From Nocardioides sp. CER19 (GTDB lineage: Bacteria > Actinomycetota > Actinomycetes > Propionibacteriales > Nocardioidaceae), in NCBI RefSeq assembly GCF_029846275.1, contig NZ_JARVWS010000004.1, positions 558,001 through 622,000 of the forward strand: a DNA stretch of 64,000 nt, in the 5' to 3' direction. Position numbers and translations under genes: made by a program. Shown piece by piece: positions 55,488-56,453 of the stretch. The stretch's first letter is position 1, and every line of letters begins with the position of its first letter. The notes below the pieces were generated by a model. The model worked only from the letters and a program-made list of their open reading frames with translations. It did no database searches and was not told the origin of the DNA.

Positions 55488-56453
55488 TCAGGAACGGGTC
55501 GCGATGCGGCGTCGCGGCGCCGGCTGGCACACCGGGCAGAAGTACGACGACCGGTTCATGAACGTCGCCCGCCGCATCGGCGTACCGCAGCGCCGGCACG
55601 GCTCGTCCTCGCGGCCGTAGGCGTTGAGCGAGCGGTCGAAGTAGCCGGACTCGCCGTTGACGTTGACGTAGAGCGCGTCGAACGACGTCCCGCCCTGCCC
55701 GAGGGCCTCCCCCAGCACGTCGCCGACGTGGCCGAGCAGCTCGCGCAGGACCGGGCCGGTCAGCCGGTTCCCGGGCCGCTCCCCGTGGAGCCGCGAGCGC
55801 CAGAGCGCCTCGTCGGCGTAGATGTTGCCGACGCCGGAGATCACGGTCTGGTCGAGGAGGAGGCGCTTGATGCCGCTCGAGGACCGCCGGACCCGGCGTA
55901 CGAAGGCCTCGGCGTCGAACTCCGGGTCGATCGGGTCGCGCGCGATGTGGGCGATCTCCGGCGGCAGCTCGGCTCCCCCGGCACTCACGGCGAGGCCGCC
56001 GAACATCCGCTGATCCACGAACCGCAGCTCGAGCGGGGTCTCGATACGCTCGCTGGCGCTCGCTACTCGACCAACCAGAAGGCCTTCGCTGGTCGAGTAG
56101 CCGGAGCCGCTAGGCGGAGGCGTGTCGAGACCAGGCTCGCCGAAGGACAGGCCGAAGCGGACGCGCAGGTGCCGCTCGTCGGGCGAGCCGGGCGGCTGGA
56201 CGAGCAGCTGGCCGCTCATGCCGAGGTGGCCGAGGATGGCGTTGCCGTCGTCGAGCGGGAGCCAGAGGTACTTGCCGCGGCGCCGCGCGGCGGTGATGGT
56301 GCGGCCGCGCAGCTCGGCCACGAAGCCGGTGGGGCCGGTCGGGTGCCGGCGCACGGGGCGCGAGTGCAGGACGTCGACCTGCGTGATGGTGGCGCCGACG
56401 ACGTGGCGCTCGAGGCCGGCGCGGACGACCTCGACCTCGGGGAGCTCCGGCAC
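55488..56453 (-). CDS. mutM: Formamidopyrimidine-DNA glycosylase Fpg/MutM with in-frame palindromic insert
   Basis: Base-excision glycosylase/AP lyase for 8-oxoguanine, 321 aa from GTG. It has the N-terminal [13 protein letters not shown] with catalytic Pro2/Glu3, [20 protein letters not shown], the helix-two-turn-helix region [20 protein letters not shown], and the zinc finger CRRCG...CPVC. Residues 108-139 are encoded by a 96-bp palindromic repeat element that interrupts the beta-hairpin joining [12 protein letters not shown] and [13 protein letters not shown]. Without these 32 residues the length is the normal 289. Reading frame, catalytic and DNA-binding motifs are intact, so it is probably functional. 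Two bases separate it from the rnc stop. Confidence 0.93.
56037..56132. repeat. 96-bp palindromic repeat element inside mutM
   Basis: The ends are imperfect inverted repeats GGTCTCGATACGC (56037-56049) and GCGTGTCGAGACC (56120-56132), one mismatch. Inner arms CTACTCGACCA (56063-56073) and TGGTCGAGTAG (56090-56100) pair perfectly around the palindrome GAAGGCCTTC (56078-56087). The element is exactly 32 codons in the mutM frame without a stop. Its sequence resembles dispersed palindromic repeats I recall from Nocardioides-like genomes; membership should be confirmed by comparison. Confidence 0.9.

Follow-up and report, generated by a model that had tools for sequence, protein, structure and literature searches.

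The mutM (fpg) gene of Nocardioides sp. CER19 carries a 96-bp palindromic stretch. Very probably this is one copy of a mobile-type hairpin repeat that is dispersed in the genome; it would have entered the gene in frame and be tolerated and translated there. The movement of the repeat and the activity of the resulting MutM we infer. On our best reading of the corresponding loops in related species, the tip of one β-hairpin of MutM would be a recurrent landing site for translated repeats of mobile type. The window referred to below is the whole stretch of genomic DNA that was analysed, 64,000 nucleotides in length.

Results

A two-unit palindrome within the mutM reading frame

The gene and the parts of the element, in window coordinates, are:

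55488..56453, reverse strand: mutM (fpg) coding sequence, GTG start, stop included, 321 residues
56037..56132, reverse strand: 96-bp palindromic repeat, full two-unit copy, encoding MutM residues 108-139
56090..56132, reverse strand: first unit in the coding direction, GGTCTCGA...CTACTCGACCA, reading as 14 residues; edges deduced from half-length copies
56074..56089, reverse strand: 16-nt spacer between the two inverted units, holding the palindrome AAGGCCTT, from reading the sequence
56037..56073, reverse strand: second unit, TGGTCGAGTAGCGAGCGCCAGCGAGCGTATCGAGACC, reading as 12 residues; many blast matches to query positions 67-103
56001..56012, reverse strand: codons Q148-R149-M150-F151 of MutM, computed by hand from the start of the coding sequence

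On the coding strand (56132-56037), the element begins with GGTCTCGA and ends with TCGAGACC, and its 96 bp form 32 codons without a stop. An earlier note on this DNA had placed it at 56037-56132, in frame and at residues 108-139, which a check of the sequence and its ORFs showed to be exact. The inverted ends and nested palindromes described there correspond to two pairs of arms, an outer pair of 20 nt (56030-56049 and 56120-56139; 85% complementary) and a nested pair of 19 nt (56055-56073 and 56090-56108; 84% complementary). The predicted fold of the 110-nt strand around the element has an energy of -65.5 kcal/mol, compared with a mean of -42.3 (sd 3.55) for shuffled sequences (z = -6.5); none of 200 shuffles was as low. 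The core TGGTCGAGTAG occurs twice in the window, both times inside the element, against 0.01 matches expected.

The Fpg catalytic and zinc motifs, which the same note had called intact, were indeed recovered. All three Fpg domains of Pfam are present in the insert-bearing MutM, and the positions that are invariant in an alignment of 70 MutM proteins include P2, E3, K61, R149, F151 and Cys 286, 306 and 309, with Cys 289 in a nearly invariant column.

An AlphaFold2 model of the protein, a check that the earlier note had proposed, had a mean pLDDT of 91.5, with values below 50 for residues 118-130. Strands 96-103 and 141-147 flank the insert, which is modelled as a disordered loop at the tip of a β-hairpin. 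The best Foldseek match was 1r2y, MutM bound to 8-oxoG DNA. In a sequence alignment with the solved MutM 1l1t, which we take to be the G. stearothermophilus protein, the insert sits between that protein's residues 102 and 105, and R112 and F114 have their counterparts in R149 and F151. This alignment places the insert at the tip of a hairpin whose other end holds the DNA-probing residues. Going by the titles of the structures, R112 and F114 are mutated in several solved MutM-DNA complexes.

Dispersed copies and their in-frame positions

A search for copies was performed on the source assembly (4.69 Mb, 4 contigs), as the earlier note had suggested. It gave at least 78 blast matches with E <= 0.01 (40 of 86 candidates scored); those in 48 loci of the source genome were merged, which left at least 49 places. 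The genomic copies are 72-90% identical to the mutM element. Many of the 49 places are half-length copies of the second unit, the commonest single-unit copy genome-wide.

A place was scored as intragenic if one frame was open through the copy, with at least 40 codons and a coding-type third-position GC content on each side. By this definition, 17 of the 49 places hold in-frame intragenic copies, spread over 14 ORFs. A named family could be assigned to 13 of these: an AccD-AccA fusion, GH3, a double ECF-type ABC ATPase, acyl-CoA oxidase, NuoG, HrpA, isoleucyl-tRNA synthetase (IleRS), hydantoinase A, the error-prone DNA polymerase DnaE2, a FAD-dependent oxidoreductase, CobN, a CobI-CobJ fusion and MutM. 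The family search returned no named family for the ORF of locus L130, which has two adjacent copies. The inserts lie between domains in AccD-AccA, the ABC-ABC protein, CobI-CobJ and acyl-CoA oxidase; in most of the other insert-bearing ORFs, the family match continues on both sides of the insert.

Three of the in-frame copies lie in CobN (C3:479762, 480502 and 481556; L239). In the CobI-CobJ linker (L007:1414-1587) and the AccD-AccA linker (L022:1419-1579), the half unit is amplified in tandem in three-base steps, encoding repeats such as DASSGGRVASAS. Outside genes, C4:114327-115064 (L013) holds a dense array of copies in either orientation, at least five in number. No transposase lies beside this cluster among the listed ORFs of L013, which read as RelA-like and DUF349-like, and this candidate source was rejected.

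Relatives of the insert-bearing genes provided two clean empty sites. IleRS of the nearest relative (genome G006) lacks exactly 36 bp where the insert lies, and 87 bp are absent at one site in CobN of G051; a second CobN site shows a 63-bp gap with further change, and the third is not clean. At these two sites no target duplication could be made out (relatives 85-88% identical). Where DnaE2 of the source genome (L015) has its insert, DnaE2 of G006 has a related one of different unit content (C20:46326-46413). An exact empty site is missing for mutM, because G006 also carries a half copy in this gene.

All 17 in-frame inserts use the phase aligned to GGT, 15 of them in sense (GLDT...) and two in the same phase on the other strand. 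Individual copies have two to six open frames; if these were equally likely, the chance that all 16 independent places fall in this phase would be 10^-5.5. G, S, T, A and E are abundant in the phase in use, and the unused phases hold W and many R. This we read as selection for nearly harmless peptides.

Up to eight repeat types at one hairpin tip

A MutM match was found in 98 of 98 sampled Nocardioides genomes, and the loop could be read by pattern in 95 of them (G026, G064 and G062 were left out). Loops of 21-27 residues are present in 71 of the 95, and the other 24 measure 29-59 residues. G006 has a half-length version of the insert. This comparison of relatives had also been proposed in the earlier note, which named as counter-evidence the same 32 residues in distant MutM proteins free of DNA repeats; no such case was seen. 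Among the named loci, the loop was read in 47 of 80, giving 45 loops of 21-27 residues, one of 37 (a Marmoricola MAG, L148) and one misparsed as 14.

Repeat-like DNA occurs in 11 of the 95 loops, at the same hairpin tip. Grouped by reading the sequences, it falls into eight types:

Type A: the source genome (G000), with a half copy in G006
Type B: G070, two tandem units
Type C: G094
Type D: G005
Type E: G049
Type F: G041, G055 and G091
Type G: G096
Type H: G051

No link to a repeat was made for the remaining 13 long loops. Types other than A use other reading phases, and type B would meet TGA in the GGT phase.

The dispersal of the other types was assessed with a joined loop query against nine carrier genomes, the matches listed being lower bounds. 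Among these, places beyond the loop number at least 10 for B (G070), more than 30 for C (G094), at least 20 for E (G049) and at least 14 for H (G051). Dispersal is weaker for D (at least two further places in G005) and F (at least one in G041), and type G has no further place in G096 among the matches listed. Clear dispersal within the carrier's own genome is seen for five of the eight types. The intragenic test was applied to 21 loci of these types (L249-L269), of which 18 were usable, L249, L261 and L269 being dropped with cut flanks. As one of the 18 loci outside MutM is intragenic, in-frame insertion of these types is uncommon outside MutM.

In a MutM tree of 95 rows, calculated with the loop left out, the carriers are scattered. 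The type C carrier G094 groups with G092 and G035 (25 residues), the type E carrier G049 with G060 (23 residues), and the type D carrier G005 with G093 (22 residues), the second support value of this last grouping being weak. Of the type F carriers, G041 groups with G008 (25 residues) and G091 with G047 (25 residues). The type H carrier G051 groups with G025, whose 27-residue loop keeps a related left part that may be the remnant of a deletion. G070, G055 and G096 sit in unresolved forks. The eight groups require a minimum of seven changes on this tree.

The three type F carriers belong to a single supported clade of 20 rows, 17 of which have no insert. Their loops may go back to one old insertion with losses, to transfer or to repeated entry; since all three histories fit, F was counted as at most one event. 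The mutM genes of G041, G055 and G091 (L036, L048 and L058) have a common 39-bp insert with the same join, and their nearest relatives are without it.

Proposed tolerance of the tip and competing explanations

Six Pfam-named genes of the mutM neighbourhood served as controls: Smc, an MFS transporter, RNase III, a CoaD-like cytidylyltransferase, RecG and a FakA-like DAK2 protein. Insertions of at least nine residues number 20 in Smc, 17 in the FakA-like protein, five in RecG and none in the MFS transporter, RNase III and the CoaD-like protein. MutM has 18, all of them at core positions 107-113. No repeat-like peptides were found among the insertions of the six control genes (56 to 98 rows in each alignment). 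At the DNA level, types A-H served as queries against the 98 mutM loci (1.06 Mb) and gave 14 places, 11 in mutM (eight being the query itself and three not) and three elsewhere; this control is biased towards mutM because its queries came from MutM loops. None of the three places elsewhere in the 98 loci is intragenic.

The recurrence in MutM might reflect insertion that is directed to this site in the DNA, or to genes of repair and replication, rather than tolerance alone. This would account for the eight sequence types at one tip with none in the six control genes, for the further copy in DnaE2 of the source genome and for the one join common to the three F-type loops; published intragenic REPs, too, are often located in repair genes according to the accessible text of PMC3733652. 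However, the tip also takes insertions that are not repeats, which shows that it tolerates growth in general. The joins of the non-F types lie at different codons, no shared target word is visible, and the queries of the DNA search were drawn from the loops themselves. Overall, we regard directed insertion as unlikely.

Entry of repeats into a tolerant tip, the reading we prefer, must also be weighed against an adaptive insertion, in which the loop or the RNA hairpin would be kept for a new property of MutM or its mRNA, such as partner binding, mRNA stability or expression control. The repeated occupation of one site in several lineages and the strong predicted RNA hairpin are consistent with such a role, yet the insert sequences differ between species, with few or no common residues, they are modelled as disordered, and most species have no insert, which makes this explanation improbable.

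Ordinary growth of a low-complexity, variable loop that is palindromic by chance draws on the 13 of 24 long MutM loops (at least 29 residues) whose sequence was not linked to a repeat, and which indicate that the tip also grows by other means. Applied to the 96-bp insert, it is nevertheless very improbable in view of the dispersed copies, the fold z-score and the repeats of other types at the same place in other species; low-complexity drift as the origin was rejected in view of the genome-wide copies. That mutM is a pseudogene or the insert an assembly artefact, for which we found no supporting point, is scarcely credible: the frame is open, third-position GC is of coding type on either side of the insert, the catalytic and zinc residues are conserved, and mutM of the independent genome G006 has a related half copy.

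Repeat shell and search for a mobilising enzyme

The repeat has a shell, GGTYGAGNAG...TCGARACC, enclosing a free inner hairpin, and this shell reaches high copy number in a second actinobacterial family. The pattern GGT[CT][GT]AGNAG...TCGA[GA]ACC retrieved 43 distinct single-unit sequences from 273 loci (1.66 Mb). The fourth base and its partner are C/G in 32 of these units and T/A in 11; mixed pairs, which the pattern allows, do not occur, and kinship may explain part of this. The exact C/G form of the shell has a match in 120 of 296 genomes of the class, with counts of at least nine (both strands) found in these 296 genomes only in the family of the window and one other. Genome G295 (family f37) has 170 + 179 exact matches with many different, perfectly paired inner hairpins; the reversed-pattern control gave at most one match per strand. 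Units of the second family have a short, perfect inner hairpin that varies in sequence with its pairing kept (12 units folded). The one to four matches in other families resemble chance hits within genes. Within the genus, 56 of 98 genomes have blast matches to the window element and 14 of 98 to the 31-residue consensus peptide.

The REP transposase family PF01797 was found in none of the 98 genus genomes (control positive in 5 of 14 genomes), and a RAYT-driven REP was rejected on this result. Phage and plasmid records matching the element were searched for and none was found, and carriage on a phage or plasmid was likewise rejected.

Discussion

In our proposed scenario, two units of about 37-43 bp in inverted order would have entered the mutM coding sequence in frame. 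The insert would have been kept because its stop-free reading phase yields a flexible, hydrophilic peptide, and because it entered at a β-hairpin tip tolerant of extra residues. The family is also present in frame in 13 other ORFs of the source genome, and other types have entered the same MutM tip in other Nocardioides lineages. The copies probably move by means of an agent acting in trans, and MutM presumably stays active with the loop at little cost.

The likeness to Rickettsia repeats that the earlier note had drawn holds as an analogy of behaviour, namely stop-free, in-frame copies in conserved genes. In the accessible parts of the literature cited here, RPEs are 105-146 bp long and lie in frame in conserved genes, one insert-bearing enzyme being active (PMC2229807), and orthologues may differ in the RPE group inserted near a given place (PMC3767692). 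As in RPEs, a palindrome of about 100 bp with many copies is stop-free and in frame in conserved genes (PMC2229807, PMC10969869 and PMC3767692, each in part). The copies are found in unrelated conserved genes (17 places, 14 ORFs), and orthologues without the insert exist for MutM, IleRS and one CobN site. Unlike RPEs, the repeat resides in a high-GC, free-living actinobacterial host and has the shell GGTYGAGNAG...TCGARACC with a free inner hairpin.

REPs inside genes, many of them genes for DNA synthesis and repair, have been described, including different REPs at about the same recB site in two Xanthomonas species (PMC3733652, accessible text). Our element resembles the GTAG/CGTC-tagged REPs of that paper in its hairpin units of 20-40 bp, which occur singly or as inverted dimers and in some cases lie in frame within genes (PMC3733652, same portion of text). 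It differs in its foot, GAGNAG with N being T, G or C (GTAG, GGAG, GCAG) in MutM loop types A-D, and in that the 98 genus genomes hold no RAYT-type gene. Twelve actinobacterial names were looked for in the accessible part of PMC3733652, and none is mentioned there. Inverted pairs of short hairpins at many genomic places are shared with REPINs and BIMEs, as far as the available text of PMC2817692 and PMC3116915 describes them, whereas the cognate PF01797 tyrosine transposase of the REPIN/RAYT system is absent from the 98 genus genomes. Bacterial MITEs, as described in review passages, likewise have terminal inverted repeats, a length of about 100 bp, no gene of their own and in-frame fusions. 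The listed full-length copies have MITE-like terminal inverted repeats, GGTCTCGA...TCGAGACC; at the two clean empty sites, in relatives of 85-88% identity, no target duplication could be made out.

Since the papers on RPEs and intragenic REPs report like cases, the kind of event is already known. Among the open-access titles and abstracts listed by our searches, none describes repeats of this kind in Nocardioides, or MutM inserts. What is new is the lineage in which they occur, the superfamily to which the repeat belongs, how many genes of a single actinobacterial genome are hit, and the entry of up to eight types into one loop. A bolder conclusion is that these repeats form an undescribed actinobacterial superfamily of translated hairpin repeats with the shell constant and the inner stem free, spread without a REP transposase and with a phase fitted to protein, whose repeated entry at the MutM tip is linked to DNA repair or replication genes beyond mere tolerance; we consider this conclusion, taken as a whole, doubtful.

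Most descriptions of coding palindromic repeats come from Rickettsia and some other proteobacteria. The same behaviour is now seen in free-living, high-GC actinobacteria, in 14 genes of one genome. MutM would provide a rare natural experiment, in which one loop has received independent repeats and close relatives are without them. It allows one to ask directly if inserts of this kind are neutral, and if repair genes are targeted more often or are only more forgiving. The MutM hairpin tip may also offer a permissive tagging site in a well-studied enzyme.
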